NCBI GenBank assembly: GCA_029881655.1
Contig: JAOUME010000007.1
Location: 1-43,545 of the forward strand
Direction: 5' to 3'
DNA from: Deltaproteobacteria bacterium
GTDB taxonomy: Bacteria > SAR324 > XYD2-FULL-50-16
DNA: 43,545 nt
Below the pieces are notes generated by a model that was not told the origin of the DNA, ran no database searches, and saw only the letters and a program-made list of their open reading frames with translations. Below are positions 17,153-35,436 of this stretch, piece after piece (the first letter of the stretch is position 1; each line of letters opens with the position of its first letter). The position numbers and the translations under genes are program-made.

Positions 17153-17982
17153 AATATTTATTTTTTCAGCTCTTACCGAAAAACCTGTTAAGCCGCCTGA
17201 TGGGAGTGCTCGCTGATATTAAATTCCCATCGCCTTTTTTGTTATCCATCATCAAGGCCTACAGCTACCTTTACGGTATTAATATGAATGAAATGGCCAA
17301 GTCGCCTAATGAATTAAAAAACTTCAACGAATTTTTCACCCGAAAGCTCAAACCTGAACTCAGACCGATTGACCCTGGTGAAAAAAGCGTTATCAGCCCT
17401 GTAGACGGAACTATCTCGGAATTCGGCGCGATCAAAGAGGGGCTCTTAACGCAAACCAAGGGAATCTTTTATACCCTAGAGGATTTAGTGGGGGAAAAGT
17501 ATTCCAAACTCTTCGAGCAGGGTTATTTCATCACGATCTATCTTAGTCCCGCGGATTATCACCGCATCCACACACCCGTTAGCGGGAAAGTCAGCAATTT
17601 CAATTATTTTTCAGGGAACCTCTGGCCGGTTAACCGGTTTGGGGTCGAGGAGATCGGCGCTCTCTTGGCGATCAACGAACGGATCGTAACCCCGATTAAA
17701 AACAAGGTCGGTATCGTTGGATTGGTCAAGGTAGGGGCGTTGGTCGTTGGAAAGATTACCCTCGATTATAGCGATATCAGTAGCAACTCAAAGGGTTTAA
17801 AATCTTTGCATTTGCCTGTCCTGCCCGAAAAAAACTATGATAAAGGTGACGAAATCGGGAAATTCATGCTAGGCAGTACCGTGATTCTTTTGTTTCAGAA
17901 AAACCAGTTTAAACCCGGTGAGCTTCATAGAGATAAAAAAATCCGTATGGGAGAAAAAATCGGCGAAATGATCAGCTCTTAA
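17149..17982 (+). CDS. psd: Phosphatidylserine decarboxylase proenzyme
   Basis: The 277-residue protein carries the motifs of the membrane-bound Psd class: F-N-E-F-F-T-R-K-L (59-67), S-P-V-D-G (83-87), D-Y-H-R-I-H (136-141) and the self-cleavage site L-G-S-T (241-244), where S243 becomes the pyruvoyl group. It makes phosphatidylethanolamine from phosphatidylserine at the inner membrane. The ATG overlaps the ftsH stop (ATGA), so the two are probably translated together. Its 3' end overlaps cheB on the other strand by 11 bases. Confidence 0.97.
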   Translation: MKYLFFQLLPKNLLSRLMGVLADIKFPSPFLLSIIKAYSYLYGINMNEMAKSPNELKNFNEFFTRKLKPELRPIDPGEKSVISPVDGTISEFGAIKEGLLTQTKGIFYTLEDLVGEKYSKLFEQGYFITIYLSPADYHRIHTPVSGKVSNFNYFSGNLWPVNRFGVEEIGALLAINERIVTPIKNKVGIVGLVKVGALVVGKITLDYSDISSNSKGLKSLHLPVLPEKNYDKGDEIGKFMLGSTVILLFQKNQFKPGELHRDKKIRMGEKIGEMISS

Positions 17983-19006
17983 GCATTTCGATCAAGGTCG
18001 AAGGAATCTTGTCCAATGACACGACTTTTCCAGCGCCTCCGTTTTCTACCGCTTCCTTAGGCATGCCATAAACAACGCAGGATGCTTCGTCCTGAGCAAT
18101 GGTCAAAGCTCCACTATTTCGCATCTCCAGCATTCCCTTAGCCCCATCAGCCCCCATCCCCGTCAAAATAACACCTATGGCGTTTTTACCCGCGCATTCG
18201 GCGGCTGAATGAAAGATCACATCGACCGAAGGACGGTGGCGGTTGACCAAAGGCCCTTTCTTGACTTCGACGAAGTACTGGCTTCCCTGTTTTTTCAACA
18301 ACATATGGTTATCCCCTGGCGCGATCAAGACCAGTCCGTTTCTTAAAATATCCCCGTTTTCGGCTTCCTTGACATCCAGTTCAAGGCATATTTGATTAAG
18401 ACGATCAGCAAACGATTTGGTGAAACCTTCGGGCATATGCTGGACGATTACGATGCCGGGGATCGTTCCAGGTAAGCCTTCCAATACATGTCTGATAGCT
18501 TCGGTTCCACCCGTCGAAGCGCCGATAACAATCACTTTTCCAGTAGCCAGGGATGAAGTTAATTGATGCTTGACCATCAAGGAAGAGGATTTTTGCTGTA
18601 AACGGGCTTTCGCACCGTGATAAAGCATATCGCATAGCTGACTGATAACCTTAGGCAAACGGTTAGCGACATCGTACTGAGGTTTTGGAAAAAGATCGAT
18701 GGCTCCCAACTCCAAGGCCTTGATACAAAGCTCCCGGTTATCATTTAAAAGCGAACTAATCACGATAATCGGAATTGGCCAATGTTTCATCAGCACTGAG
18801 ATGAACTCGAGACCGTTCATCCTGGGCATGTTCAAATCCAATGTTATGATATCTGGTTTTAACTCAATTATCATATCGCGAGCTTCATACGCATCTCCGG
18901 CCGTACCCAACACCTCAATCCTCGAATCTTTGGAAAATCCTTTTTGAAGGATGCTCCTGACTACTGCGGAGTCATCAACGATGATCACTTTCACCTTTTC
19001 GCTCAT
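17972..19006 (-). CDS. cheB: Chemotaxis response regulator protein-glutamate methylesterase CheB
   Basis: The 344-residue protein has a receiver domain (about 4-122) with phosphoacceptor D57 and a C-terminal CheB methylesterase domain (about 155-340). The catalytic triad is visible as S164 (G-A-S-T-G-G), H190 (V-Q-H-M-P) and D287 (G-M-G-A-D-G), matching E. coli CheB. It removes methyl groups from receptor glutamates when phosphorylated by CheA, giving adaptation. It is the last gene of the Che cluster and starts three bases after the cheD stop. Confidence 0.97.
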   Translation of the reverse strand: MSEKVKVIIVDDSAVVRSILQKGFSKDSRIEVLGTAGDAYEARDMIIELKPDIITLDLNMPRMNGLEFISVLMKHWPIPIIVISSLLNDNRELCIKALELGAIDLFPKPQYDVANRLPKVISQLCDMLYHGAKARLQQKSSSLMVKHQLTSSLATGKVIVIGASTGGTEAIRHVLEGLPGTIPGIVIVQHMPEGFTKSFADRLNQICLELDVKEAENGDILRNGLVLIAPGDNHMLLKKQGSQYFVEVKKGPLVNRHRPSVDVIFHSAAECAGKNAIGVILTGMGADGAKGMLEMRNSGALTIAQDEASCVVYGMPKEAVENGGAGKVVSLDKIPSTLIEMLKS

Positions 19007-19009
19007 CTT

Positions 19010-19531
19010 TTATGCCTTTATCTCGTTAAGTTCCTTTTCAAAGTTAAACTGACCCAAGTAATTGTGAACAATCTTTCCCGTACGAACGTCAAATTGAATT
19101 TTTCTTCCCGTATGACCGCCAATATCCCTTCCGGTTATTTCCAATTTCAATTTACCCAATACTTTTAAGGTGATCTCAATATTTCTGTCACCCACATTCA
19201 CTCCTCCCTTAAAACCGTACTTCGCCATTCCGTTCGCTCCGCCAAAAATCTTGGCCTGTATAAACCGGGGGTAACAACCCTCCTCCCTTAGCATATCATA
19301 CAGAACGTAGGTCGCTACATTGCCGTACCGAGTCGAAATCGGTTGATCATCTGGATTGACCGGCAACATTACATGGTTCATCCCGCCGATTTGCCTCTTG
19401 CTGTCCCACAAACAAACCGCGACGCAAGAGCCCAAAACCGTGTTGATAACCATATCCTCCTTGCTGATGAAAATCTCACCAGGATGAAGATGGTAGCTCT
19501 TCTTTTTAATTAAAAAAACACTACTACCCAT
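19010..19531 (-). CDS. cheD: Chemoreceptor glutamine deamidase CheD
   Basis: The 173-residue protein shows the CheD signature G-S-C36-V and a downstream G-G-M-N-H53-V-M-L-P, giving the catalytic Cys and His. It deamidates Gln to Glu in chemoreceptor signalling helices; in many species it also binds CheC, but no cheC is present in this window. The start overlaps the last bases of the receiver gene by eight bases, showing tight coupling. The presence of CheD, CheB and CheR together implies classical receptor-methylation adaptation even though no receptor gene is nearby. Confidence 0.95.
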   Translation of the reverse strand: MGSSVFLIKKKSYHLHPGEIFISKEDMVINTVLGSCVAVCLWDSKRQIGGMNHVMLPVNPDDQPISTRYGNVATYVLYDMLREEGCYPRFIQAKIFGGANGMAKYGFKGGVNVGDRNIEITLKVLGKLKLEITGRDIGGHTGRKIQFDVRTGKIVHNYLGQFNFEKELNEIKA

Positions 19532-19892
19532 TTAAAAGTTCCTCAATCTTATCCAAGAGGATATTCGCTCTAAAGGGTTTTGTCATATAAGCGTCCGCTC
19601 CGACAGAAAAGCCTTCCTCCTCATCTTGTTTTCTTCCTTTGGCCGTCAGAAGAATAATTTTGATTTTTTTTGTTTTTTCGTCACTCTTCAGCCTTTTGCA
19701 GACTTCATAGCCGGTGATATCCGGCATCATAATATCCAGCACGATCAACTCAGGTGGGTCTTTTTCCACACTTTGAATCGCTTCGGTACCATTGCTGGCG
19801 TTTTGTACCTGATAGCCTTTGAATTCCAAGCGAAAAGCAACCAAATCCCTGATTTTTTTTTCATCATCCACTATAAGAACCTTTCTACTCAT
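19524..19892 (-). CDS. Single-domain response regulator (CheY-position receiver)
   Basis: From the ATG at 19892 the protein has 122 residues: a lone receiver with the acidic pair at D9-D10, phosphoacceptor D53, the T85 of I-L-L-T-A and K105 of T-K-P-F. A strong Shine-Dalgarno (AAAGGAGG) just upstream fixes the ATG; an in-frame TTG one codon earlier is less likely. The sequence looks more like a PhoB/PilH-type receiver than motor-binding CheY, so I do not name it cheY. It is the likely output or phosphate sink for one or both CheA kinases or for the adjacent histidine kinase. Confidence 0.93.
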   Translation of the reverse strand: MSRKVLIVDDEKKIRDLVAFRLEFKGYQVQNASNGTEAIQSVEKDPPELIVLDIMMPDITGYEVCKRLKSDEKTKKIKIILLTAKGRKQDEEEGFSVGADAYMTKPFRANILLDKIEELLNG

Positions 19893-19920
19893 CAAACCTC
19901 CTTTATGCCATCGTTAACAA

Positions 19921-20733
19921 TTATTTTTGATAAATCGCGGGTTGCAAATATTTAAGGGATGTTTTAATACCGCTTAAACTTTCCGCATTTCCAATAATAA
20001 ATATACCACCTGCCGTTAGCTGCCTGGCAAGTCGTTCGACTAGACGTTCTCTCGTTTCCTTATCGAAATAGATCATCACATTGCGACACAATATCACGTC
20101 AAATTGAGCTTTCAGGGGAAAAGGTTCCATCAGGTTCAGACGGCGAAAAGAAACCAACTCCTTTAATTGCTCCTTCACCATGTAGTACCCATTCCATTGG
20201 TTATGTCCTTTATAGAAATATTTTTTTAACTGCGCGACCGGAATCGGTCGGACCAGTTCTTCCGAATATACACCAGCTTCAGCCTCGGCCAAAACCTTGG
20301 TCGAAATATCCGTCGCCAGAATCTTAATGTCTTTGTCTTTTGCGTCGCGAAGATGCTCCAATATCGTAATCGCCCAAGTATAGGCTTCCTCTCCGCTCGA
20401 ACTCGCTGCGCTCCATAACCTGATCTTGTTTTTCCTTTCCAGCCGCGGATAGACATTATTTTTTAAAAACTCAAAATGGACCGACTCCCGGAAAAAATCA
20501 GTCTTATTAGTAGAAATGACGTTTAACATCTGGCTGAACTCATCGTGATGATCAGGATGCGTCACATATTCTCGGTATTTTTTATAAGAAATGATGTTTA
20601 AAGCCACCATCCTCTTTCTGAGACGCGTCATCAAGAGTTGTTTCTTGTTATCGGTAAAGTTGATACCACAAGTATCATAAATCAAGCGTTGATACTGATT
20701 GTACTCAGCGTCCGACATTGCTGTTTCGATCAT
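19921..20733 (-). CDS. cheR: Chemotaxis protein methyltransferase CheR
   Basis: The 270-residue protein has the CheR N-terminal helical domain and the S-adenosylmethionine-dependent methyltransferase domain. Landmarks are T-N-K-T-D-F-F-R-E (75-83), W-S-A-A-S-S-S-G-E-E (107-116), A-T-D-I-S (140-144) and I-L-C-R-N-V-M-I-Y-F-D (214-224). It methylates receptor glutamates, opposing CheB. Its ATG overlaps the stop of the upstream histidine kinase gene as ATGA, indicating that the kinase and CheR are made together. Confidence 0.96.
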   Translation of the reverse strand: MIETAMSDAEYNQYQRLIYDTCGINFTDNKKQLLMTRLRKRMVALNIISYKKYREYVTHPDHHDEFSQMLNVISTNKTDFFRESVHFEFLKNNVYPRLERKNKIRLWSAASSSGEEAYTWAITILEHLRDAKDKDIKILATDISTKVLAEAEAGVYSEELVRPIPVAQLKKYFYKGHNQWNGYYMVKEQLKELVSFRRLNLMEPFPLKAQFDVILCRNVMIYFDKETRERLVERLARQLTAGGIFIIGNAESLSGIKTSLKYLQPAIYQK

Positions 20734-23048
20734 GTGGTCTCTAACCTCTTTCCAATTTTATATGGCAGGCGGAATTTAAAAACCGCTCCATTAGAATTAT
20801 TTTCAGCCCAGATTGTCCCCATATGCCCTTCGATGATCTTCTTGGAAATGGTTAATCCCAAACCAGTGCCTTTAGCATTATAACCGCTTCTTTTGATTTG
20901 CTGAAATTTTAGAAATATATCACTTAATTTCTCAACTGGGATACCCGGTCCCTGATCTCTGATGGAAACCGTAAAATCATCAGCCCCCTGCTCTACCCCA
21001 ATCTCGATCTTTCCATTATCAGGAGAGTGTTTAATCGCGTTGCCCAAAAGATTAACCAATGCCTGGGTTATTCGGTCTCCGTCTCCGTAAAATTGTATGT
21101 CCACAGGATTGTAATTTATTGTAATATTATTATCTTCTGTCAACAACCCTCCAACTGAGTGGATCGACCTCTTTATTTCGTCATCCAATTTAGTTTTTCT
21201 AAAATCGAACTCGACAGGTCCGGATGTCATTGTCGATAGATCCAGGATATTTTCGATCAATTGATTCAACCGTTCTGATTCTTCTATTATAATATAGCAA
21301 AACTTCTTTTTTTGTCCATCATCCAAATCGCATTCGGCGATCGTATCCGCATAACCCAGGATCGACGCGATCGGTGTTCTCAATTCGTGAGAGACCGTCG
21401 CTAAAAAATCGTCCTTTAACCTATCAAGACTTTTTAACTCTCCAAGCGCTTTTTCAAGACGATCATTGGCGTTTTTCAAATCCCTAACCCTTTCCTGCAC
21501 CTTCTGTTCGAGTCCATTTTTAGTGTTAATCAATTCTTCTTCGATCTTTTTTCTATCTGAAATATCTTCTTTTATCGCCAAATAATTAGTGATTTCTCCA
21601 TCGACGTTCCTTAAGGGAGAGATTGAAGCGACCTCCCAGTAATACTCTCCGTTTTTTTTCTTATTGTAGAGCTCCCCTCTCCAAGTCTGCCCCCTTAATA
21701 ACGTTTGCCATAACCCCTCATAGACTTCTTTTGCCATTTTCCCTGAACTGAAAATTCTTGGATTTCCCCCAATAACTTCCTCGGCTGAGTACCCTGTCTC
21801 CTCACAGAAATAGGGATTGACATACTCAATCACGGCATCGGTGTTAGTGATGATGACAGACACGGGACTCTGATCCACCACCTGAGATAGGGTCGCGATC
21901 ACTTCCGCGTCAGCTTTCTTTTGCGTTAGGTCCTTCACTAAAAAAACAACCCCTTCTCGCCCTTCCAATTCGCTAGCTAAGACATTCCCCGAACACAAAA
22001 CAGGTACTTGCTTGCCCTTTTTAGTCAACCAAATCGTCTCGAAGGTTTTATCCTGACTTTTTAGACTCGCCGAATCCCAACATAGATCAATATACCTCTG
22101 TTCTTTTTCTTTAAAAAATTCATCGAACTTCATCCCCATCAAGTCGGTTTTATCAGCGTCCAACATTTTCAAACCAGCGGGGTTAACCCTACTTACCTTT
22201 TTATCCAAAGTAAAAACGATCAGTGTATCATAAAGGGAATTGATGATATCTTCGGTCTGTTCATTCACACGCGACAAATTTCTCATCATCGCGTTTCGGG
22301 ACTCCATGATCAGCCCCAATTCATCGTTGTGGATATCAGAATCATCGATATAGGAGAATTTGGAAGACTGGCTAGACTCCAGGTTTTTTGAAATGATAAG
22401 ACGGATCGGTCGATGAATCCGGTAATAATAATGAATCCATGTTAATGCCGATAAAAAACCCCCAAAAAAGATCATGACGATAAAAAATTGAAAAAAATCA
22501 TCAAATTCCTTGATGATTAGCGAATTATATGAAAACCGCAGACCGATAACAAAATAATGGTCCTTATTCATTGTATTCGTATAAAAAGGCTCGAATACCA
22601 ATATTTCTTTACTGTTAATTCGATAACTCCCTTCCTCGCCGGCGATCATTTTTTTAACCAATTTGGATGGATATTCATCGTTGATACTTTTAGATTTATT
22701 AATTGTTACTGGCTCTCCTTTGGAGTAAAAAAGGAGATAGTTGCCTTCCTGATCCAAAACAAAAAAGCTTTCGCTTTGCCTCTTAAGATAAAATAATTTC
22801 TCAGGAAGATTATTCAGGTAAGGCGTGAAATTACCATCCTCTGAGGACATAAGTCTTTCGTGGAAATGAAAAGCTGTTTTATGCATGATCATCTTCGATT
22901 TGGCTTCGAGATATTCACCCTGAATATCAACCAGAAGATACCGACCAAACCAACCCATCAAAAGCAGAGGGATCGATAAGAGCAAAAGCTGAAAGAGTAA
23001 TAAATTTCTAAAAATCCAACTCTTATTTAATATTTTAACGAGCTTCAT
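20730..23048 (-). CDS. Membrane PAS-domain sensor histidine kinase
   Basis: The 772-residue protein has TM1 (about 13-31), a periplasmic sensing region of about 150 residues, TM2 (about 186-206), a HAMP-like linker, two PAS domains (about 262-375 and 383-500, the second with a PAC region), a coiled coil (500-545) and a histidine kinase core. H554 (S-H-E-L-R-T-P) is the phosphorylation site; the N-box N-L-L-G-N670, G1 D-Q-G-P-G-I (698-703) and G2 G-T-G-L-G-L (727-732) are intact. It is embedded between cheA1 and cheR with a 4-base overlap into cheR. It may phosphorylate the nearby lone receiver, linking a two-component input to the chemosensory array; that link is inferred. Confidence 0.93.
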   Translation of the reverse strand: MKLVKILNKSWIFRNLLLFQLLLLSIPLLLMGWFGRYLLVDIQGEYLEAKSKMIMHKTAFHFHERLMSSEDGNFTPYLNNLPEKLFYLKRQSESFFVLDQEGNYLLFYSKGEPVTINKSKSINDEYPSKLVKKMIAGEEGSYRINSKEILVFEPFYTNTMNKDHYFVIGLRFSYNSLIIKEFDDFFQFFIVMIFFGGFLSALTWIHYYYRIHRPIRLIISKNLESSQSSKFSYIDDSDIHNDELGLIMESRNAMMRNLSRVNEQTEDIINSLYDTLIVFTLDKKVSRVNPAGLKMLDADKTDLMGMKFDEFFKEKEQRYIDLCWDSASLKSQDKTFETIWLTKKGKQVPVLCSGNVLASELEGREGVVFLVKDLTQKKADAEVIATLSQVVDQSPVSVIITNTDAVIEYVNPYFCEETGYSAEEVIGGNPRIFSSGKMAKEVYEGLWQTLLRGQTWRGELYNKKKNGEYYWEVASISPLRNVDGEITNYLAIKEDISDRKKIEEELINTKNGLEQKVQERVRDLKNANDRLEKALGELKSLDRLKDDFLATVSHELRTPIASILGYADTIAECDLDDGQKKKFCYIIIEESERLNQLIENILDLSTMTSGPVEFDFRKTKLDDEIKRSIHSVGGLLTEDNNITINYNPVDIQFYGDGDRITQALVNLLGNAIKHSPDNGKIEIGVEQGADDFTVSIRDQGPGIPVEKLSDIFLKFQQIKRSGYNAKGTGLGLTISKKIIEGHMGTIWAENNSNGAVFKFRLPYKIGKRLETT

Positions 23049-23060
23049 TAACTTAATATT

Positions 23061-25220
23061 TTAATTCTGGTTTTTCCAGGCATTAACGATGGACTTCGTA
23101 TCCATTATCAACCCAAAGCGACCGTTTCCTAATATCGCTCCTCCGCTGATACCGATTAGACCGTCCAGATGGTCCTTTAAGCTTTCCACCACAACCTGTT
23201 GTTGAGACAGCAACTCATCGGCCAGCAAACCATAAGGCTTGTCTTGCTCCCGAACCACAAAAATCACCTTTTTGGTAATATCGATTTCATCGACCGGGAT
23301 ATTAAACACTTTGCCCAATTTAACGATCGGCATGGCCTGATCCCGATAAATCACAAACTCGTCGTTCTCATCTTTAGCTCGTTTGATATCTCCTTTTAAA
23401 ACGCTAAAGGTATGTTCCACCGTAAATATCGGGAAAATAGCAAACGTTTTGCCTATTCTGGCGACCAACCCATCGATAATCGACGTGCTGGTCATGATCG
23501 GCAGATGAATCATGAAGCAGGTTCCTTTGCCTTTTTCGCTTTCAATGATAATTCTTCCGCCCATTTTAATGATTGCGGTTTTAACCACATCCATCCCGAC
23601 ACCCCTTCCAGAAACATCTGATATCTCATCGGCGGTAGAAAACCCTGGTTGAAAAATCTGTTCAAAAATTTCCTGGTCTGTTAATTCCGCATCCGGTGCA
23701 AGCAAACCCTTCTCTGTCGCTTTTTTTAATATTTTTTCTTTGTCGAGACCCTTACCATCATCTGAAATCATTAAAATAATCTTATCGCTGGTCAATTTAA
23801 TACTGACCTTAATCAATCCTGACAGGGCCTTGCCGACGCGAATCCTGTCATCTGGGAGTTCAATACCGTGATCAACCGAATTTCTGATCATGTGGATTAA
23901 AAAATTTGACAGGGTCTCGAAGGTGTTTTTATGAATCTCGATTTGTTCACCGACCGTTTCAAAAGCCACCTTTTTATTTTTCTTTTTGGCCAAGTCCATC
24001 ACCAGTCTCTGAAGCCTCTTAAAGATGCCCACCATTGGAAGCATATGGGTATCGGCGACTTTGGTCCTGAGATTATCAGTAACACGAATGAGATTTTCAA
24101 TCTTGTTTCTGGTGCTGAAATGAGCGTTGTGAATGGTCGGGTCCTCCTTGATAGCGTTCATCAGCACCGTCAACTCACCAATCATGCTGTAGAGTTCTTC
24201 CATCTTGGTCGTGGATATCCGAATGGAATCTTCCTTGTTTTCTTGAGTACTTGCTTGGGCTGCCGATTGATCAGACACAAAATTCTTCTTGACCGAATCC
24301 AAATCCAAATCCTGAATGCTTTTTCCCTCAATCAGGTTTTCAATCCCTTTCAAAAGAGGCTCAAGCTGGATCACGGCAGGAAAACGAGGTTTTTTATCTT
24401 TTGACTGCTCCAGCTTCATGCTGAGGTTGCTAAACAGAAGCCTTATCATATCAACCACACGTAATGTGGTTCTGATAATCGTCTGAGATAATATATCAGG
24501 GTTGGAGCGTACATGATCTAAAAGATTTTCACCTGCGTGGCTGATATGCTGAATCGAATTTAACCCCAAAAAGGAAGCCGTCCCCTTAATGCTGTGCAGG
24601 TGACGAAAAATACTATCGATATCCAAATTTTTGGGATCGTCTTCCGCCGATAACAGCTTATCCTCAATCTCCTCCATAGGGTCTAACGCTTCCTGTATGA
24701 AATCCTCGATGATAACCCGGTTTTCAGCGTCCGTAGTTCCAAAATCAAAAAAGGTCACTTCCTTGAAAACCTTGTCCACCGTCGCGCGTTCCTTTTCAGA
24801 AAGAACCCTTTTTTCCTCTTTTTCTGAAACAAACATCTGATAGATGCCGTTGACCAGTTCAAATTCCTGCTCAGAAAAGCCTTTCTCCAGACCCTCCTCT
24901 GAATCCAACGCAGTTTCGATTACCTCAAAAATATTTAAGGCATAACTTAATCCCGTGAAATGGCTTTCACCTCCGGCTTCAACCGATTTTAATATATTTT
25001 CAAGCTTACCGAAGGAACTTCCTAGGTTTTCTAGCTTATGAATCGAACAGGATTTTCTGATTTCCAGGAGGATCGGTGTGATTTCCTTAAGATCTGGCGG
25101 TGTCGAACTGAAAATATCAAGCTTGGTAAAAATAATTTTGAGGCTCTTTAATTGGGGCAGGACATCTTCCAACTCCTTGACTACAGTCTTTAATTTCGCA
25201 TCCTTTGCCATTGTTTCCAT
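23061..25220 (-). CDS. cheA: Chemotaxis histidine kinase CheA1
   Basis: The 719-residue protein contains an extra N-terminal helical region (about 1-150), the P1 phosphotransfer domain with H209 in L-H-S-I-K-G-T-A, no clear CheY-binding P2, a P3 dimerisation region (about 333-395), the P4 kinase domain (N447 of R-N-S-V-D-H-G, G1 D-D-G-K-G-L at 487-492, then G-R-G-V-G-M-D at 538-544) and a C-terminal CheW-like P5 (about 580-715). All kinase motifs are intact. The extra N-terminal region is shared with CheA2. Two ATGs three codons apart (25220 and 25211) are both possible. The gap to cheW is 189 bases, unusually long for this cluster. Confidence 0.96.
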   Translation of the reverse strand: METMAKDAKLKTVVKELEDVLPQLKSLKIIFTKLDIFSSTPPDLKEITPILLEIRKSCSIHKLENLGSSFGKLENILKSVEAGGESHFTGLSYALNIFEVIETALDSEEGLEKGFSEQEFELVNGIYQMFVSEKEEKRVLSEKERATVDKVFKEVTFFDFGTTDAENRVIIEDFIQEALDPMEEIEDKLLSAEDDPKNLDIDSIFRHLHSIKGTASFLGLNSIQHISHAGENLLDHVRSNPDILSQTIIRTTLRVVDMIRLLFSNLSMKLEQSKDKKPRFPAVIQLEPLLKGIENLIEGKSIQDLDLDSVKKNFVSDQSAAQASTQENKEDSIRISTTKMEELYSMIGELTVLMNAIKEDPTIHNAHFSTRNKIENLIRVTDNLRTKVADTHMLPMVGIFKRLQRLVMDLAKKKNKKVAFETVGEQIEIHKNTFETLSNFLIHMIRNSVDHGIELPDDRIRVGKALSGLIKVSIKLTSDKIILMISDDGKGLDKEKILKKATEKGLLAPDAELTDQEIFEQIFQPGFSTADEISDVSGRGVGMDVVKTAIIKMGGRIIIESEKGKGTCFMIHLPIMTSTSIIDGLVARIGKTFAIFPIFTVEHTFSVLKGDIKRAKDENDEFVIYRDQAMPIVKLGKVFNIPVDEIDITKKVIFVVREQDKPYGLLADELLSQQQVVVESLKDHLDGLIGISGGAILGNGRFGLIMDTKSIVNAWKNQN

Positions 25221-25409
25221 CCCTTGTAATCATAAACAAAAAAGACAACTAAAAAATCACCAATTAACTTTAAAGTCTTGTTGCCTGCCATGCTTAATCG
25301 GGTATAACAACACTCTTGTGATAGTATCTAGTTACAAAGGAGGAGCCGTCACAATCAACTTTCCCTATGATCCACAACAATTTAATTACATCCGCAAAAA
25401 CAAATTTCC

Positions 25410-25898
25410 TTACACGCTTTCAGGCTTGCTAATCAAAACCAATTCTTCGTTAGTCAATATTTTTGCCATATCCAATACGATTATCACCCTTTTATCCAGT
25501 TTGGCCATCCCACGGATAAAAACCGTATTGATATTAGAACCGAGATCTGGACTATCTTCAAATTCGGCTTCGTCAATGGTGACAACACCCACTAAAAAAT
25601 CGACAATTGTGCCGGTTAATTTCCCTTGTATATCCACAACAACAATGCAGGATTCGCTGGAGGGTTTCCTTTGTTCCATCCTGAATTTCAATCTTAGATC
25701 AATGACCGGAATAATTTTCCCCCTAAGATTAATCACTCCCTTCATAAAATCTGGAGTCTGAGGTACAGGATCGATTTCCAGCATCCCCACTACCTCCCTG
25801 GCCTCAAGGATCTGTATCCCATATTCTTGCTCACCAATTAAAAATGTTAGTAACTTACCGCCTGATTCTTCAAACAGCTGATTTCCACTTTCGCTCAT
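25410..25898 (-). CDS. cheW: Chemotaxis coupling protein CheW
   Basis: From the ATG at 25898 the protein has 162 residues and is a single CheW domain: L-L-T-F-L-I-G-E-Q-E-Y-G-I near residue 17, then R-E-V-V-G-M, the F-M-K-G-V-I-N-L-R-G-K-I-I-P-V-I-D-L core, and a C-terminal V-I-I-V-L-D-M segment. The start is set by a strong Shine-Dalgarno (AAAGGAG) seven bases upstream; an earlier ATG at 25925 lacks one. CheW bridges receptors to CheA. It is the only CheW here for two CheA kinases, so it could serve both. Confidence 0.96.
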   Translation of the reverse strand: MSESGNQLFEESGGKLLTFLIGEQEYGIQILEAREVVGMLEIDPVPQTPDFMKGVINLRGKIIPVIDLRLKFRMEQRKPSSESCIVVVDIQGKLTGTIVDFLVGVVTIDEAEFEDSPDLGSNINTVFIRGMAKLDKRVIIVLDMAKILTNEELVLISKPESV

Positions 25899-25981
25899 AA
25901 ATCTCCTTTCGAGAATATTTTCCAAGTAATCTATAACTTGTAAGATAAATTATACGAAATTACGCTATTATTTACAAATAG

Positions 25982-28225
25982 TTATTTAAAACTATGGGTT
26001 TTCTGAATAAAGCTCACCGGATCTATGATTAGCCCAACCCTACCGTCACCTAGGATCGTCCCCCCCGAAATCCCTTTGAGGCCCGAAAAGCGTTCGCCCA
26101 TATTTTGTATTACGATTTGCTGCCGGTGAATCAGTTCATCAACCATAAGTCCATACTTCTTGTTTCCGTCATTGACCACCACGATGACCGCCTCGGATGG
26201 GTCTTTTACTAAAGGTTCAATGTGGTAGATCCGATAGATTCTAACTATTGGGATTAAATCGCCCGCCAGTAAAAAAAACTCGTCATCCCTACCCTGGAAT
26301 CCCTTTAAAGAGCTTTTATCCGGCGTTACCGTCTGATCGACATCCAAAATAGGTAAGATAAAACGATTTTCTCCCACCGCAACGACCAAACCCTCGATAA
26401 TCGATGTCGTCAGTGGCATTTTTAAGATGAAAGTCGTGCCTTTCCCAATCTCGCTCTCTATATTAATTTTTCCTCGCAGGGATTCCACCGTTTTAGTAAC
26501 AACATCGAGACCAACTCCCCTACCTGAAATATCGGTAATTTTTTTTGCTGTTGAAAAGCCCGGCATAAAAATAAAACCGAAAACCTCCTTGTCGGTCAGT
26601 TTATCGGTTTCTTTTGCCAAGCCCTTTGAAATCGCCTTTTGAAAAATGACATCCCGGTTTAGCCCCTTACCATCGTCTGTTATTTTCAGCATGATGGCAT
26701 CGCCTAAATGTTGTGCGCTGAGTTGCACAAGCCCTGCTTTTTTCTTTTTGGAGACCTTTCTTTCCTTCTCCTCTTCGATACCGTGATCGATTGAGTTTCT
26801 GACAATATGCATTAAGGGCGCATAGATATTGTCGATGATGCTTTTATCGACCAGCGTTCCAGCACCACTAACCTCTAAATTAATCTCCTTTTTGGATTTT
26901 TGGGATAAATCACGCACTTGTCTGGATAATTTGGTGAAAATAGTACTGATGGGAAACATGCGGATTCCAAGAACCTTATCCCTTAAACTTTCGGTGATTT
27001 TCTCCAAATGATCCAGATGACGGTGGAGACTTCGGTCTTTTAACTCAGCTATAATTGGGTTTTGAGTCAACAAGGACAAGGCTACCACCATCTCTCCAAC
27101 TTCACCGGAAAGCTCATCCAGCTTGTCTGCCGGAACTTTCAACATTTCAACAACCTTACTTGCTTTCCCGCCTTCCGATTGGGCTGAAACTTTCGTCTTT
27201 TTCACCTCAATCGGTTTTTCTATCAGGTTTTGGCGTTCATCATCCTGATACTCGATTTTATCAGTGATAACATCCCTGTTCTTTTCAACTTCATCAAAGG
27301 GGATTTTTGATAAAACTTCTTGATCCCCCAGGTCCTTCGCACCAATTGGCAAGTCTTGTTGTTGCCGCTTTTCACTTTTATTCTCGAGATTATCCAAACA
27401 GGTAAAAAATTCTTGGATGCTAACCGTCTCGACTTCTCTGCCTTCAATCAACTCTGTCAATTGGGACACCAATCCCTTTAAAGTATCCACCGAAATAAAA
27501 AGCAAACTGATAACATCCCCGTCGATTTCTTGTTTTCCATCCCGAACTACCCCCAACACATCCTCAGTCCGGTGCGCAACCTTGCCGATCGTTGAAATCC
27601 CCAGAAACCCAGCAGTTCCCTTGATGGTGTGCATCACCCTGAAAATCTGATCGACGAGATCCTTGCGAGCAAAATCCTGTTCCAATTCCATTAAGTTGCT
27701 CTCGACCAACTCAATGCCTTCGGTCGCCTCATTGATAAAATCGGAAGCCAGACCATCGTCGATAATATCCTGAGGGGGCAAATTCTGAATAACTTCGGTG
27801 GGCTCCTCATGCTCAACTTCTAGGTTCTCCGTCTTTTCAGCGAACATCTTCTGTAATCGTTCCAAAGCCTTGTCGAAATCATCGAAGGTATCCTCTCCAT
27901 GGATATAGGATTCTAGAGTTTCATCTAAAAATTCGTAAAGATTTAAAACATAAGACAACCCCGTATAATGGCTGATATGCTCGGTTACCACCTCCGTTAA
28001 AAGCTCGTTAATAAAACCGATCGCTCTCTCGAAGTAAGGGACATTAAATTTCTTAAATTCACCCAGCAGGAGATCAAAGAGATTCATTATCTCACCGCAA
28101 CCCTGAATCTTGTAGATCCTTAAATCCGCCATTACCAGCTTTAAATTCAGGTTATCACGGATTGGAAGCAATTCAACTTCAAATTGCTTTCTCTCCTCAT
28201 CGTTTAATTTTAGATGTTCTGTCAC
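25982..28225 (-). CDS. cheA: Chemotaxis histidine kinase CheA2
   Basis: The 747-residue protein starts at a GTG and is the first gene of the Che cluster. It has the shared extra N-terminal region (about 1-135), a P1 domain with H199 in M-H-T-I-K-G-T-A, a charged linker (280-355) without a recognisable P2, P3 (about 360-425), P4 (N477 in R-N-S-I-D-H-G, D-D-G-K-G-L at 517-522, G-R-G-V-G-L-D at 568-574) and a C-terminal CheW-like P5. All phosphotransfer and ATP-binding residues are kept, so it should be an active kinase rather than a scaffold. The upstream 230 bases are A/T-rich and must hold the cluster promoter. Confidence 0.95.
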   Translation of the reverse strand: MTEHLKLNDEERKQFEVELLPIRDNLNLKLVMADLRIYKIQGCGEIMNLFDLLLGEFKKFNVPYFERAIGFINELLTEVVTEHISHYTGLSYVLNLYEFLDETLESYIHGEDTFDDFDKALERLQKMFAEKTENLEVEHEEPTEVIQNLPPQDIIDDGLASDFINEATEGIELVESNLMELEQDFARKDLVDQIFRVMHTIKGTAGFLGISTIGKVAHRTEDVLGVVRDGKQEIDGDVISLLFISVDTLKGLVSQLTELIEGREVETVSIQEFFTCLDNLENKSEKRQQQDLPIGAKDLGDQEVLSKIPFDEVEKNRDVITDKIEYQDDERQNLIEKPIEVKKTKVSAQSEGGKASKVVEMLKVPADKLDELSGEVGEMVVALSLLTQNPIIAELKDRSLHRHLDHLEKITESLRDKVLGIRMFPISTIFTKLSRQVRDLSQKSKKEINLEVSGAGTLVDKSIIDNIYAPLMHIVRNSIDHGIEEEKERKVSKKKKAGLVQLSAQHLGDAIMLKITDDGKGLNRDVIFQKAISKGLAKETDKLTDKEVFGFIFMPGFSTAKKITDISGRGVGLDVVTKTVESLRGKINIESEIGKGTTFILKMPLTTSIIEGLVVAVGENRFILPILDVDQTVTPDKSSLKGFQGRDDEFFLLAGDLIPIVRIYRIYHIEPLVKDPSEAVIVVVNDGNKKYGLMVDELIHRQQIVIQNMGERFSGLKGISGGTILGDGRVGLIIDPVSFIQKTHSFK

Positions 28226-28456: not shown

Positions 28457-29374
28457 CTATTTTTTTTGGAATCGGCGGTATTCTTGCTTGGTTACATCAA
28501 AAGTGATAACCGTTCTCGATGGCACCGACTCGGTAATCCAGACGTTTCCACCGATAACCGAGTCTCTGCCGATAACCGTATCGCCTCCCAAAATATTACA
28601 CCCAGCATACAGTACAACATTGTCCTCGATGGTGGGATGCCGTTTTTGTCCTTTTACCAAAGCACCGTTATCATCCTTTCGAAAACTTAAGGCACCCAAC
28701 GTTACTCCTTGATAGATCTTAACATTATCACCAATTCTACAAGTCTCGCCAATAACCACTCCGGTTCCATGATCGATAAAAAGACTCTCACCAATTATTG
28801 AGCCTGGATGGATATCAATCCCGGTCTTGGTATGAGCGTATTCGGAAATCATACGTGGAATAAGCGGTACATCGCGAATATACATCTCATGGGCGAAACG
28901 ATGAAGCGATATCGCCTGAATGGATGGATAGCTCATGATGACTTCCTCATGACTTTGAGCGGCAGGATCTCCTATATAAGCGGCCTCCACATCCTTTTTT
29001 AAAAGCACTCTGATTTTAGGTATCTGCGCTAATACCTCAAGGGTTATTTTCTCGGCCTCCTCCTGATGCTCCTGATGTTTATTTTGCTTCCGATCAAAAC
29101 AAAGGCTTCTTAATATCTGCAAAAACAATCTCTGGTAGACCGCATCCAGAATATAACCACTCCAGTTACTCAGATTTCCGCTGTGGATTCTCTCGACACT
29201 ATAAAATCCGGGAAAAAGCAAATGCATCAGTTTTTTTACGATATCAACCATTTCAGGATTTGAAGGCAAATTGACACCCTCAACATGGTTGATACCCCCC
29301 TGCAAATCGTAGGTCTTGACAATCTCGTTGTGAATGATCCCCAGTTGTTCTTCCGTTTTTAGTTTTTCAGGCAT
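28457..29374 (-). CDS. cysE: Serine O-acetyltransferase
   Basis: The 305-residue protein has an N-terminal helical region and a left-handed beta-helix hexapeptide repeat domain (about 183-290). Catalytic residues are visible as D136-P-A, H158 (S-L-H-R-F-A-H) and H202 (I-D-H-G-T-G), the same set as in E. coli CysE. It makes O-acetylserine for cysteine synthesis. It is longer than E. coli CysE (273 residues) because of an extended N-terminus of the kind seen in the EpsC-like long group. The ATG follows an A/T-rich leader without a Shine-Dalgarno sequence. It follows lpxK by 23 bases. Confidence 0.95.
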   Translation of the reverse strand: MPEKLKTEEQLGIIHNEIVKTYDLQGGINHVEGVNLPSNPEMVDIVKKLMHLLFPGFYSVERIHSGNLSNWSGYILDAVYQRLFLQILRSLCFDRKQNKHQEHQEEAEKITLEVLAQIPKIRVLLKKDVEAAYIGDPAAQSHEEVIMSYPSIQAISLHRFAHEMYIRDVPLIPRMISEYAHTKTGIDIHPGSIIGESLFIDHGTGVVIGETCRIGDNVKIYQGVTLGALSFRKDDNGALVKGQKRHPTIEDNVVLYAGCNILGGDTVIGRDSVIGGNVWITESVPSRTVITFDVTKQEYRRFQKK

Positions 29375-29397
29375 TATAATATTTCAAACGTTAAAGG

Positions 29398-30483
29398 TTA
29401 TCCCTGTTGTAATAAATTAAATTTAGCCCAATTTATTAAGAAGCTAACAGCTTCATCCTTGAGTTTCAACTCTATTTTCAATCGGCAAATCTCAGGCAAA
29501 TATTCTTTGAAAGACTCCAGTTTCGACCAGTCTTTCTCGGTACACAAAATCAAATCATATTCGTTTTTCTGAAAATATTTCTCTAGTCGTTTTTGTGTCT
29601 CACTTTGATATCCTTCGTGGTCAGGAAAAACCAAATGATCCACGACGATCCCACCAAGCGAATCAACTAACTTTGTGAAACTCGATGGATTCCCAACCCC
29701 GGAAAATAAGAGGCATTTCTTTCCGTTTAACCATTCTGGCTGTTTTATCTCCGCTCTCTTTGAAGATAAAATAGCCATCGGCGTTAATTCGCTTTCCCAT
29801 TCCTTGATTTTTCCCGGCAGAAATCCACGTATCTTCTCCATTATCTCATCGGCCGATTTCAAGTTGCAACGAGTATAAATAATCACATCAGCCCTTTTCA
29901 ACTGATTTAAAGGCTCTCTGAGTGGACCCAACGGCAAGAGGTAGCCATTACCAACGCCGGCCATGGAATCGATCATAACGATATTCAGGTCTCTCTTCAG
30001 ACGAATGTGCTGCATGCCGTCATCCAGCAAAAGCAAATCAGCCTTAGGCTCCGCCAGCTTAGCCGAAAGATATCTCTCAGGCGAAATATAAAATGAGGTC
30101 TTAGGATGCTTTTGAAACAACATCCAGGGTTCATCTCCGAATTCAACGCAGGAACCACTTGGGGCTGTCTGTTGATTCAGGATAACCACTCCCCCACCTT
30201 TTTTTGACTTATACCCCCTTGTCAATACGGCTGAGCTCAAACCGTTTTCATCAAATATTTCAAGCAGTCGATCAATCATAGGACTCTTACCGGTGCCTCC
30301 AACAGTGATATTGCCGATCGATATCACCGGTTTTTGTGACGATCTGGTTTTAAAGATTCCAATCCTGAACAAAAAAAGCCTGATACGAACCAAAAAAGTG
30401 TATACCTGACTAATAGTCCATAAAAAAGACCACTTGATGATATTTCCCCATTTCGGCTCTAGTTGAAAATCGATCAAAACCAT
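29398..30483 (-). CDS. lpxK: Tetraacyldisaccharide 4'-kinase LpxK
   Basis: The 361-residue protein has the LpxK N-terminal hydrophobic anchor (about 17-40), a P-loop G-N-I-T-V-G-G-T-G-K-S-P (57-68), the D-D-G-M-Q-H motif and a long C-terminal domain with L-C-T-E-K-D-W. It phosphorylates the disaccharide precursor of lipid A at the inner membrane, direct evidence for a lipopolysaccharide-bearing outer membrane. The ATG is preceded by GAGGGA at a longish spacing. It lies between selU and cysE with no functional link to either. Confidence 0.95.
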   Translation of the reverse strand: MVLIDFQLEPKWGNIIKWSFLWTISQVYTFLVRIRLFLFRIGIFKTRSSQKPVISIGNITVGGTGKSPMIDRLLEIFDENGLSSAVLTRGYKSKKGGGVVILNQQTAPSGSCVEFGDEPWMLFQKHPKTSFYISPERYLSAKLAEPKADLLLLDDGMQHIRLKRDLNIVMIDSMAGVGNGYLLPLGPLREPLNQLKRADVIIYTRCNLKSADEIMEKIRGFLPGKIKEWESELTPMAILSSKRAEIKQPEWLNGKKCLLFSGVGNPSSFTKLVDSLGGIVVDHLVFPDHEGYQSETQKRLEKYFQKNEYDLILCTEKDWSKLESFKEYLPEICRLKIELKLKDEAVSFLINWAKFNLLQQG

Positions 30484-30509
30484 TTGCCACTATCCCTCAT
30501 GGACTGTTA

Positions 30510-30521
30510 AATATGCATATT
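30510..30521. repeat. 12-bp perfect palindrome between lpxK and selU
   Basis: AATATGCATATT reads the same on both strands. It lies 27 bases upstream of the lpxK start, between lpxK and selU. A symmetrical A/T-rich palindrome can be a binding site for a dimeric regulator, but palindromes of this composition also arise by chance in A/T-rich gaps. Confidence 0.3.
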
Positions 30522-30578
30522 CCATTTTTTGACTTGTTTTGAGATACCCTTGAATTTTGCGTAATATCCCATTTGGGT

Positions 30579-31622
30579 TTATGGGTTGCCAGCGATTTCG
30601 CTCAACTCCGCGACTGCCATATCAATATCTTCGGTATCTATTCGCCTCATTATATTCATTCCCTTGAGTGAAAGTGTGTAGAGTCTGTCGTAATAATTCT
30701 CAAGAATATACTTAAAGCAAATATGATCTTCCCCCCTGTCGAAGAGTTCCACCAACCAATAGATCCTGTCTTTTCCAAGACTTCTTTTCAGCTTAAGGAT
30801 AATCTCTCTTATCAAAGGTCTGTTTTTACCCTCCTCATCAATATATTCGTCAATGGTCCTCTGCGTCCTGGTTTTAATAGAGGCTTCAAGCAAAATCACC
30901 TTCGCTTTTTGCATACCCTCAAACACAACTCTCGGTATGGTAAGGTTGCCAATTTTTCTGCTTTCTCCTTCGATAAAAAGAGCCCTGTTTAAGTCAAGCA
31001 AGCTCAGCTGACGAAAAAGCTCACCCTCAAAAACCTTCTGTTTTCTGGGCGATTTCCCAACGGCTCCAAACAGTGATCCTCGGTGCTGTGCAATTCCCTC
31101 AAGATCCAGCGCATTATCAAGCCTTTCGATAACCAGGGTTTTGCCTACCCCTGTTTGTCCACACAACAGAAAAGGTTCCCTAAATTCGATTTCATCAAGT
31201 CCTTTTAGCACCCATTGTCGGTAGGCTTTATACCCTCCCTGAAGTCGACAAACCTTAAAACCGTAGCTCATCAGCAAAGAAGTGATCACCTTTGACCTAA
31301 GGCCACCTCTTGCGCAATAAGCGACAGTTTTAGAAGAATTCTCGTAGGATTTGAACTGATTTCTTAATTGTTCGAGTTTGGGCTTTAGTAGTTGATAACC
31401 TTCCCTGATCGCTTCTGGTTGACCAAAATTCTTATACAAAATCCCGATCGTCTCACGTTCGGCGTTTTCCAAAAGAGCGATATTTTCAGCTCCAGGAATA
31501 GCCCCATCCTGAAACTCCGATGGAGAACGCACATCAATAAAGCGGATTCCAGGAATTCGGTTTGCCACCTCAAAAGATATTTCTTCGACCTTTAAAAGGT
31601 GCAGATCTTCCCGCATCATCAC
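30579..31622 (-). CDS. selU: tRNA 2-selenouridine synthase
   Basis: The 347-residue protein has an N-terminal rhodanese domain (about 8-140) with catalytic C103 in Y-C-A-R-G-G-L-R-S, and a C-terminal P-loop domain with G155-Q-T-G-V-G-K-T162. This is the SelU/MnmH architecture, which replaces the sulfur of 2-thiouridine at the tRNA wobble position with selenium taken from selenophosphate, by way of a geranylated intermediate. Its presence implies that the host makes selenophosphate (SelD), which is not in this window. The start has three ATG codons in a row and no Shine-Dalgarno sequence. It follows the act operon after a gap of about 120 bases that holds a long hairpin. Confidence 0.95.
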   Translation of the reverse strand: MMMREDLHLLKVEEISFEVANRIPGIRFIDVRSPSEFQDGAIPGAENIALLENAERETIGILYKNFGQPEAIREGYQLLKPKLEQLRNQFKSYENSSKTVAYCARGGLRSKVITSLLMSYGFKVCRLQGGYKAYRQWVLKGLDEIEFREPFLLCGQTGVGKTLVIERLDNALDLEGIAQHRGSLFGAVGKSPRKQKVFEGELFRQLSLLDLNRALFIEGESRKIGNLTIPRVVFEGMQKAKVILLEASIKTRTQRTIDEYIDEEGKNRPLIREIILKLKRSLGKDRIYWLVELFDRGEDHICFKYILENYYDRLYTLSLKGMNIMRRIDTEDIDMAVAELSEIAGNP

Positions 31623-31676
31623 AAACCGGGTGCTTTAAATATAGAATAATAAAACGATAATGGATTTTTATAGGTT

Positions 31677-31718
31677 ACTTGATTTAGTATGTTTTGTGAA
31701 GGACATACTAAATCAAGT
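31677..31718. repeat. 16-bp perfect inverted repeat between actF and selU
   Basis: Arms ACTTGATTTAGTATGT (31677-31692) and ACATACTAAATCAAGT (31703-31718) flank a 10-base loop. All 16 pairs match, the longest perfect inverted repeat I found in the window. It stands 23 bases after the actF stop on the minus strand. Neither strand has a T-run after it, so it is not a standard intrinsic terminator. It may still stop or stabilise the act transcript. Confidence 0.75.
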
Positions 31719-31740
31719 TGGCAGAAAGGCCTTGTAAATC

Positions 31741-33042
31741 TTAATGGTGGGATACTTGAAAAAAACGTTTGTCTGAAATCGGCACCACGGGAATCCTTTG
31801 CAAAAACCAAAGAGCGCAGAACAGAAACCCGCCTAAAACACCCAGTGTGATGGCGAAATCATAAAGGTTATACTCAAATCCGGGAAGTCCGTGTTCAGCT
31901 GCACCATGCCCAGCGGCGGCGAGATTCTCTTGAATCGATGGGACGATAAGAAAATATTTCTCAAGCCAGACGCCCACTAAAATATCGATTGCGATTATCC
32001 TCGAAAACCAGACCGAATTACTGGAGGTCCTGCTCATCAACCCGAAAAAGGGAATAATGAAAAGTAGCACCATGATCAACCAGAATACCCATCCCCATTC
32101 GTGAGACTGCATTCTTAAGATAACATAAGGGGTCTCCTCCGGAAGATTCCCATACCAGATCACCAGTACTTGCGAGAAAATCAGGTAGGTCCATAGTGCG
32201 CAAGCTGAAAATCCAAGTTTCGATACATCGTGGTAGCGGTTGACGCTGATATAGTCCTCAAGGCGAAGACGGCTTCTGGCAAAGCCTGAGAAGATCATCA
32301 GCATGGCGAGAGCCCCAATCATATTGGCAATCGCGTACTGAACCCCAAACATCGTGCTGAACCATTCCTGATCAATCGACATCATCCAGTCGAAAGCTAT
32401 CAAAGTACTCAAAAGGGCAAACGCAATTCCAACAAAAGGCGCCAGTCTCCGGGTTATACGAATAGATTGCAACTCCTCTTCTTCTTGGTCGCCGTAGTTC
32501 TTGATAAACCGGTTGGCAAAGTTATTGCCAAATTGGGTCAGTCTTTTCGCCAGACCAACATCGGGTCGCACAGAAGCCTTAAGATAAAACCAGCCCAAAA
32601 TCATAAAAATGATAAACAGGATCACGTTCCTTTCAACGAAAAAGGGATAGCTCAACCAACCTGCCTTAGAATGAATAACCTTATCATGATCCATCCATTC
32701 GAAAAAATGATGCCCCCCGAAGAAAAGAATAATAAATAAAATCCCCGCAAACGGAGTAAAACTGGCCATCGATTCGGCCAGCCTTTTAATAGGTCTACCC
32801 CAGTTGGCTTCAGTTACCGTCATAATCACCGAAAACATCAATCCACCGGTGGATATCCCTCCGAACAGAATCGTATTGATCAAAAGCGCACGCCAGGCCA
32901 GTCCCGAATGTCCGCTCACAAGTCCAACGATAAATCCGATGACACCTATGGCCATAAGAACAATCAATAAATTACGGATACCATTGCCAAGCTGAAAAGC
33001 ACTGTTGGTCAGCACTTCTTTCATTTCATCATTCCTGGTCAT
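31741..33042 (-). CDS. actF: Alternative complex III subunit ActF
   Basis: The 433-residue integral membrane protein has about ten hydrophobic segments and closes the act operon, the usual place for ActF, a smaller relative of ActC-like quinol-binding subunits. Landmarks are H-H-F-F-E-W-M-D-H-D near 107-116 and F-D-W-M-M-S-I-D-Q-E-W near 225-235. It is expected to help form the membrane part of the quinol:electron-acceptor oxidoreductase. A GGAGAAG sequence supports the ATG at 33042. The gene overlaps the end of actE by 14 bases. No cytochrome oxidase genes follow. Confidence 0.88.
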   Translation of the reverse strand: MTRNDEMKEVLTNSAFQLGNGIRNLLIVLMAIGVIGFIVGLVSGHSGLAWRALLINTILFGGISTGGLMFSVIMTVTEANWGRPIKRLAESMASFTPFAGILFIILFFGGHHFFEWMDHDKVIHSKAGWLSYPFFVERNVILFIIFMILGWFYLKASVRPDVGLAKRLTQFGNNFANRFIKNYGDQEEEELQSIRITRRLAPFVGIAFALLSTLIAFDWMMSIDQEWFSTMFGVQYAIANMIGALAMLMIFSGFARSRLRLEDYISVNRYHDVSKLGFSACALWTYLIFSQVLVIWYGNLPEETPYVILRMQSHEWGWVFWLIMVLLFIIPFFGLMSRTSSNSVWFSRIIAIDILVGVWLEKYFLIVPSIQENLAAAGHGAAEHGLPGFEYNLYDFAITLGVLGGFLFCALWFLQRIPVVPISDKRFFQVSHH

Positions 33043-33589
33043 GCTTCTTCTCCAGTAGTCTTACAAAATTGACAATATCCCATCGGTCCTTTGATGTTGT
33101 CGCTATTCCAATAGGCGGCATCACTGCCCCCCCATATCTGATTTTATGATAGATATAGCCGTCCGAAAAGGCGGGTGATAAGTCTGAAATTATCGGAGCG
33201 ACCATTCCCTTGCTATTGACCTGGGTTTTTGCGAATCCGTCCTCGTTCGCCTCAGATGTGATTCCGTGACAAACAGCGCAATAGGTTTTGTATTTAAACT
33301 CCCCATTTGCCAGAGATTCCGCGCTCGACTTGATTGGGTTCCTGGTCGTCGTTTTTGGGCTCATTTCCCTGGAAAGCCAGTCGAATCTGTTCTCATAATT
33401 TTCATAAATCCGCCCATCGGTCGATACCGAGCCAATAGGAAAATCGATCATGCTACCCTCTTCCTGAGGCTTGATACTCTTTTGGTTATACATATCGGTA
33501 ATCCAGACGAAAAGGCTCGATTTTCCGAAAATGGTTCCAGCCCCAATGAGGATAAACAAACCAAACAGCAGTATGATTTTACGCTTCAC
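33029..33589 (-). CDS. actE: Alternative complex III subunit ActE, monohaem cytochrome c
   Basis: From the GTG at 33589 the protein has 186 residues. It has an N-terminal membrane anchor or signal (about 5-21), one c-type haem site C104-A-V-C107-H108 and a distal Met candidate M157 in G-A-V-M-P-P. It would pass electrons from the ActA haems or Fe-S clusters to a periplasmic carrier or oxidase. The GTG has a strong GGAGG upstream and overlaps the actD end by 11 bases; a longer TTG start at 33646 would add 19 residues inside actD and is unlikely. Confidence 0.88.
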   Translation of the reverse strand: MKRKIILLFGLFILIGAGTIFGKSSLFVWITDMYNQKSIKPQEEGSMIDFPIGSVSTDGRIYENYENRFDWLSREMSPKTTTRNPIKSSAESLANGEFKYKTYCAVCHGITSEANEDGFAKTQVNSKGMVAPIISDLSPAFSDGYIYHKIRYGGAVMPPIGIATTSKDRWDIVNFVRLLEKKHDQE

Positions 33590-35428: not shown

Positions 35429-35436
35429 ACAGGCTC

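Follow-up and report, generated by a model that had tools for sequence, protein, structure and literature searches.

A predicted P1-like domain without phospho-accepting histidine precedes P1 in two CheA kinases of an SAR324 bacterium

The window analysed here, a stretch of 43,545 nucleotides from a 3.0-Mb genome in 304 contigs (G000), carries a chemotaxis operon with two cheA genes, and the question raised by this locus is what stands at the head of both kinases. Approximately 135 extra residues precede the P1 phosphotransfer domain in each protein, and the initial annotation had taken them for an undescribed domain common to the CheA proteins of this lineage, possibly serving in docking, in dimerisation or as an extra phosphotransfer module. 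On the basis of predicted structures we consider it likely that each CheA starts with a silent, histidine-less P1-like (Hpt-fold) domain, a ‘pseudo-P1’, placed ahead of the true P1 and the usual kinase core. Throughout, CheA1 denotes the product of the gene at 25982-28225 and CheA2 that of the gene at 23061-25220, the numbering of the initial annotation seeming to be reversed; the features of the locus are compiled in Table 1.

Table 1. Features of the che operon and of its two CheA proteins (window positions)
Feature	Position	Strand	Remarks and basis
CheA1	25982-28225	-	747 aa, GTG start, first gene of the operon; N-domain, P1, P3, P4, P5 (Pfam)
CheA2	23061-25220	-	719 aa; N-domain, P1, P3 (weak), P4, P5 (Pfam)
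CheA1 N-domain, residues 8-138	27812-28204	-	predicted P1-like fold without phospho-histidine (model, Foldseek, VIA-align)
CheA2 N-domain, residues ~7-136	24813-25202	-	predicted P1-like fold without phospho-histidine (model and structure comparison)
CheA1 motif, residues 85-98	27932-27973	-	H86 starts helix 4 (sequence and model)
CheA2 motif, residues 86-99	24924-24965	-	H87 starts helix 87-105 (sequence and model)
CheA1 D51, putative place of the P1 phospho-histidine	28073-28075	-	whole-domain structural alignment; register supported by structure and not by sequence scores
CheA1 true P1 (Pfam Hpt, residues 160-255)	27461-27748	-	motif histidine at residue 199 (Pfam)
CheA2 true P1 (Pfam Hpt, residues 170-248)	24477-24713	-	motif histidine at residue 209 (Pfam)
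CheW	25410-25925	-	171 aa, between both cheA genes; PF01584, E 2.4e-37
PAS-PAS-HisKA histidine kinase	20730-23048	-	within the che operon (Pfam)
CheR	19921-20733	-	Pfam
Single-domain response regulator (CheY-like)	19524-19895	-	between cheR and cheD
CheD	19010-19531	-	Pfam
CheB	17972-19006	-	Pfam

Both true P1 domains retain their motif histidine (Table 1), and Pfam analysis placed a CheW-like domain at the end of both proteins and revealed no receiver domain in either. In CheA2, a second ATG at residue 4 is located nine bases after an AAGGG in the upstream sequence and may be the true start. The 227-aa ORF at 25078-25761 is an overlapping frame read from the opposite strand.

Alignment of residues 1-135 of CheA1 with residues 1-137 of CheA2 confirmed that the two regions are alike far beyond chance, with a score of 88, whereas 2000 shuffles averaged 30.3 (sd 5.2) and went no higher than 66; blastp aligned the two N-termini across 39 residues with an E-value of 2e-7. 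The motif S-H-[FY]-T-G-L-S-Y-x-L-N-[IL]-[FY]-E, by which the likeness had been recognized, is indeed found once in each protein, from residue 85 in CheA1 (H86) and from residue 86 in CheA2 (H87), whereas the later [QK]-M-F attributed to residues 128-130 of both proteins is there only in CheA2 (Q-M-F), the K-M-F of CheA1 occupying residues 126-128. The Pfam Hpt (P1) match starts at residue 160 in CheA1 and at residue 170 in CheA2, and ahead of it no Pfam family reached its cut-off in either protein, nor was any family named by NCBIfam or PHROGs for either N-terminus alone. The shared helical domain is thus without a name at the cut-offs of these three libraries, as had been supposed. PF18077 (DUF5595) was rejected as its identity, since the match with CheA1 (E 3.5e-4) fell below the cut-off of that family and was obtained with only one of 11 members. 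These 11 members, namely the N-domains of nine CheA1 proteins, of CheA2 and of a standalone protein, make up the profile used below (A1), in which five rows are near-identical. A sequence search with A1 against PDB chains gave 4ow2_A (E 6.8e-5), which was likewise discarded, as no stretch passed alone and the match was taken as a repeat effect. The P2 (CheY-binding) domain of CheA sits between P1 and P3 and has an alpha/beta fold, whereas the N-domain precedes P1 and is all-helical in both models.

Near full-length CheA1 orthologues were detected among 58 searched genomes in three other members of the window genome's family (55-60% identity) and in four genomes of the genus g10, family f3 (45-47% identity), with a partial one in G035. 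With profile A1 the N-domain was detected in 9/52 genomes from the phylum, all of one class in this set; the window's genome is among the nine, all of which carry CheA1. The domain is present in all nine CheA1 proteins with a readable N-terminus, across two families. Two more members of the CheA1 clade, in G013 and G045, have unreadable N-termini, their matches beginning within approximately 130 and 90 bases, respectively, of a contig end, near which G013 also has an in-frame stop. At an E-value of 1e-4 the domain was detected in 0/291, 0/77, 0/4 and 0/17 genomes (0/389) of four other phyla, which are solely those of the four distant genomes from the first search, and it may occur elsewhere. 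The presence of the domain in CheA proteins of this lineage was borne out for those of the CheA1 type. Plasmids searched with the CheA1 N-domain gave no match, and 17 pattern matches in viral contigs included no relative. In a Vallitaleaceae sequence found by the contig scan, the match starts at residue 152 and the protein has its own P1 at the N-terminus.

The standalone protein is encoded in the window's genome by an open frame of 156 aa (L054 982-1452, contig C111), which ends with an N-domain 33% identical to that of CheA1 and carries Cys at the place of the motif histidine. Inspection by eye of the three forward frames after it revealed no P1 remnant. The frame lies upstream of an open frame that, again by eye, resembles a sensor kinase with a PAS domain, an arrangement like that of FimL.

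A degenerate Hpt fold had been proposed for the N-domain before the results of the structure searches were obtained. AlphaFold2 modelling of the CheA1 N-domain with profile A1 (pLDDT 81.2, pTM 0.74) predicted helices at residues 9-32, 40-59, 63-80, 86-108 and 114-138, of which helices 1-4 form a four-helix bundle. The CheA2 model (pLDDT 85.1, pTM 0.78), with helices at 2-17, 21-33, 47-60, 64-81 and 87-105, a short one at 108-113 and a last one at 117-149, was built from the same sequences with CheA2 placed first, and the two models are therefore not independent. Both are helical bundles that, built from one alignment, agree with each other, as the initial annotation had anticipated. The up-down helical bundle of Hpt domains, five-helical in CheA P1, was thus found in the predicted models, and the helix order is predicted to be that of CheA P1 helices A-E.

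Foldseek comparison of the CheA1 model with the PDB returned CheA P1 chains at all of ranks 1-8, the best E-value being 0.013 and the TM score reaching 0.69 by query and 0.76 by target. Designed or synthetic proteins (6ff6, 6fes, 2lch with 3u3b, 7t03 with 7t2y), which match the true P1 of CheA1 in sequence and are P1-derived, stood at ranks 9, 10, 11, 12, 14, 15 and 19. With the CheA2 model, CheA P1 occupied ranks 1-5 (best E 0.059) and unrelated proteins followed from rank 6; neither model gave a PDB match at an E-value of 0.001 or better. VIA-align superimposed the CheA1 model on 1i5n_D with a Z of 14.8 (rmsd 2.9, 128/129 residues), the first listed chain outside the Hpt and P1-derived group having a Z of 10.2, and the CheA2 model on 1i5n_B with a Z of 12.8 (rmsd 3.6, 123/125 residues), a value inside the program's caution range for helical bundles, the first listed unrelated chain having a Z of 9.7. 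Thus, the term ‘undescribed’ holds for the sequence family and does not hold for the fold, as the nearest solved structures are those of CheA P1; a match to a known CheA domain, which had been named as the outcome that would speak against novelty, was obtained in structure and not in sequence.

Sequence comparison was less favourable to this relationship. None of the 11 N-domains (0/11) matched Pfam Hpt at E-values up to 10. Profile comparison of the N-domain with P1 in the structural register gave a global score of 11.0, which was higher than 200/200 column shuffles and lower than 26/32 rotations of the P1 profile, and these controls speak against that register. The best local profile match (E 0.0018) lay in another register, with helices 4-5 against P1 helices C-D, and its score of 24.5 compares with a maximum of 18.5 in 150 shuffles, 18.7 with the reversed profile and up to 24.0 with rotations. 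At the level of sequence, the profile comparison does not carry a sound kinship of the N-domain with P1. The structural register is nevertheless preferred because helices 1-4 constitute the four-helix bundle of the model, 1tqg (Thermotoga maritima P1) being aligned by VIA-align with CheA1 residues 7-109 (Z 11.9).

These data bear on the chief rival reading, which we hold to be considerably less probable without being far-fetched, namely that the N-domain arose separately as a helical bundle, has only a likeness to P1 and acts as a docking or dimerisation module. The missing sequence kinship to Hpt, the out-of-register position of the best local profile match and the ease with which helical bundles look alike are all compatible with such an origin. 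It is opposed by the structure comparisons, in which P1 chains and P1-derived designs top both VIA-align lists, with the P1 chains aligned across all five helices and the best of them 4.6 (CheA1) and 3.1 (CheA2) Z units above the first unrelated bundles, and by a sister CheA with a Gln-bearing P1 copy at the same place. This other CheA (L033 1039-3225, G004) belongs to the window genome's family; its N-terminal domain, which matched the P1 profile across 117 columns (E 4.9e-11), has Gln at the phospho-site and is followed by the true P1, the only one listed by Pfam at E-values up to 0.1. Its P1 copy does not match profile A1 (E 0.27). A histidine-less P1 ahead of P1 does therefore occur in the window genome's family. 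Three CheAs of family f4 (L015, L016 and L018) each have two Pfam Hpt stretches as well as further short, helical-looking N-terminal stretches; the latter were rejected as kin of the N-domain (profile E 0.46 with A1 and 0.2 with P1).

In the whole-domain structural alignment, D51 of CheA1 faces the P1 histidine. Given this register, the corresponding column of the 11-row alignment contains no His: the nine CheA1 proteins have D (four) or E (five), CheA2 has L and the standalone copy has K, and the phospho-accepting histidine of Hpt domains on helix B, in an HxxKG-like motif, is accordingly not seen at this place. As the five E rows are near-identical, the acidic residues represent two kinds of ancestor and not nine events. 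The CheA2 residue at the place of D51 is Leu in the multiple alignment and Pro in the pairwise alignment. The end of helix 2 at residue 59 and the start of helix 3 at residue 63 in the CheA1 model suit the D51 register, given what we take to be the helix ends of P1. There is no His within helix 2 of CheA1 or CheA2, and no column of the alignment has His in more than six of the 11 rows. A His occurs after helix 2, in the column of CheA1 F60, in four of the 11 rows, and the rows of g10, G001 and G005 carry a His inside helix 2 or at its end, in columns other than that of D51; these other histidines slightly weaken the P1-like reading and slightly strengthen that of a separate origin.

The acidic residue admits a further reading, an improbable one in our judgement, according to which the N-domain permanently imitates the phosphorylated state of P1 and would act as a constant decoy for CheY or P4, setting the basal output. 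On this view, the copies with Leu (CheA2) and Lys (standalone protein) would lack the mimicry and compete with it.

Conservation within the domain was examined in the same alignment. Among the four CheA1 proteins of the family, identity amounts to 70% in loop 3-4, 49% in helix 4 and 48% in loop 1-2, while helix 2 has 42% and helix 5 has 27%. The differences are smaller when all 11 rows are included (helix 4 41%, helix 1 38%, loop 3-4 38%, helix 2 31%). G89 is invariant and L90 and E98 are near-invariant in the 11 rows. Between CheA1 and its three family orthologues the N-domain is 36-39% identical, as compared with 58-63% for the true P1 and 23-29% for the P1-P3 linker. The faster change relative to the true P1 would fit a decaying remnant, left by the duplication of P1 and now without a role, which is nonetheless very hard to reconcile with an N-domain that changes less than the linker, that has been kept in nine CheA1 proteins of two families, in CheA2 and in the standalone frame, and in which the residues just named have persisted. 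Least credible of all is the extra phosphotransfer module using H86/H87 that the initial annotation had considered, as this residue is H in CheA1, CheA2, G001 and G003 (4/11 rows) but elsewhere S (G005), Y (five rows from g10) or C (standalone protein), so that the motif histidine is no conserved phosphate acceptor, and as it begins helix 4 and does not lie on helix 2.

The N-domain is thus most likely a silent P1-like copy with a docking or regulatory function, and not a domain of a new kind; docking or dimerisation is the role that we infer. Devoid of a phospho-accepting histidine, such a pseudo-P1 would be unable to receive phosphate from P4 and would act by binding. Its face formed by loop 3-4 and helix 4, which carries the motif, would dock on a partner in the array, be it a neighbouring N-domain, the true P1, or CheA2 in the case of CheA1, and docking could tune the access of the true P1 to P4. 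The motif face is proposed as the docking face because it is the best conserved part among the four family CheA1 proteins, unlike the helix-2 face, which in P1 is the surface used for P4 and CheY. This binding role is suggested by the pattern of conservation together with the published P1-P1 and P1-P4 contacts discussed below.

In G001, G003 and G005 the operon has the order cheA1-cheW-PAS kinase-cheR-cheY-cheD-cheB and lacks cheA2, which in the window lies between cheW and the PAS kinase gene; a similar kinase to the PAS-PAS-HisKA kinase of the window is thus found at the same place, between cheA/cheW and cheR, in these three genomes. In G005, cheD is split over two frames (L036 4515-5087), which indicates a broken gene or a sequencing error. 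Upstream, positions 28457-38568 of the window hold a molybdopterin/Fe-S, NrfD and cytochrome c cluster, a rhodanese-domain protein, LpxK and a hexapeptide transferase, which lead co-directionally into the che operon, and the order of respiratory cluster, LpxK and hexapeptide transferase upstream of this operon is kept in three relatives. A FliM match was obtained in 52/52 genomes, and flagella are therefore likely throughout this set.

A search of 50 genomes with CheA2 gave no other match covering its N-domain except, in part, CheA1 of G001, and CheA2 is accordingly, as far as seen, an addition in the window's genome. In a tree of 26 CheA cores, which included the g10 rows and from which L028 was left out owing to its long branch, CheA2 was placed beside the CheA1 clade (support 99/98) on a branch of 2.56, a length that makes its exact place unsure. 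CheA2 and CheA1 share only 25% identity in P3 and 44% in P4. Its position next to CheA1 in the tree and the N-terminal domain that both share make CheA2 most likely a duplicate of CheA1, either old or rapidly changing.

Among known systems, the N-domain is closest to CheA P1/Hpt itself (PF01627; 1i5n, 3kyj, 1tqg, 2ld6), with which it shares the predicted helical fold, the size and the place before the kinase core, and from which it differs in having neither phospho-histidine, HxxKG motif nor sequence match and in being an extra copy ahead of the true P1. None of the titles and abstract openings returned by searches of open-licence papers for pseudo-P1, His-less or tandem P1 domains in CheA describes this family. 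Excerpts of a survey of CheA architecture report Hpt domains without histidine in ChpA and in Rhodobacter CheA3, a further ChpA domain that is Hpt-like by predicted structure only, the role of such domains being yet to be determined, and a C-terminal receiver domain in more than 90% of multi-Hpt CheAs (PMC10782961); an excerpted review states that four of the nine ChpA domains are not phosphorylated and have an unknown role (PMC12632253). Since histidine-less Hpt domains have already been described in CheA (PMC10782961), the N-domain would represent a novel sequence family within an established kind. An Hpt-like predicted fold without phospho-histidine beside an intact Hpt, as in ChpA, was found here as well, whereas the C-terminal receiver domain that is usual, if not strictly defining, for that kind is lacking in CheA1 and CheA2, and a single histidine-less domain stands at the N-terminus; the likeness drawn here to ChpA and CheA3 is one of description.

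A pattern for the possible action of a pseudo-P1 is offered by Escherichia coli arrays, where, in the excerpted account, the model has two P1 domains paired in antiparallel fashion and lodged between P4 domains, with P1-P1 and P1-P4 contacts that are non-productive (PMC10653900). That dimer is formed by true P1 through helices A and B, whereas the family conservation observed here is highest at loop 3-4 and helix 4. For the standalone protein, the counterpart is FimL of Pseudomonas aeruginosa, according to excerpts a separate protein with two Hpt-like domains that carry Gln and are related to the N-terminus of ChpA (PMC3019171, PMC3535393). FimL would thus stand to a CheA N-terminus as L054 does to that of CheA1, with the difference that FimL has two domains with Gln, the two cases being likened by description. 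In ChpA such domains occur amid nine Hpt-like ones, whereas here a single one stands at the head of a CheA that is otherwise simple and has an intact P1, and it also exists as a separate small protein, so that a deletion or binding test would be easier to read.
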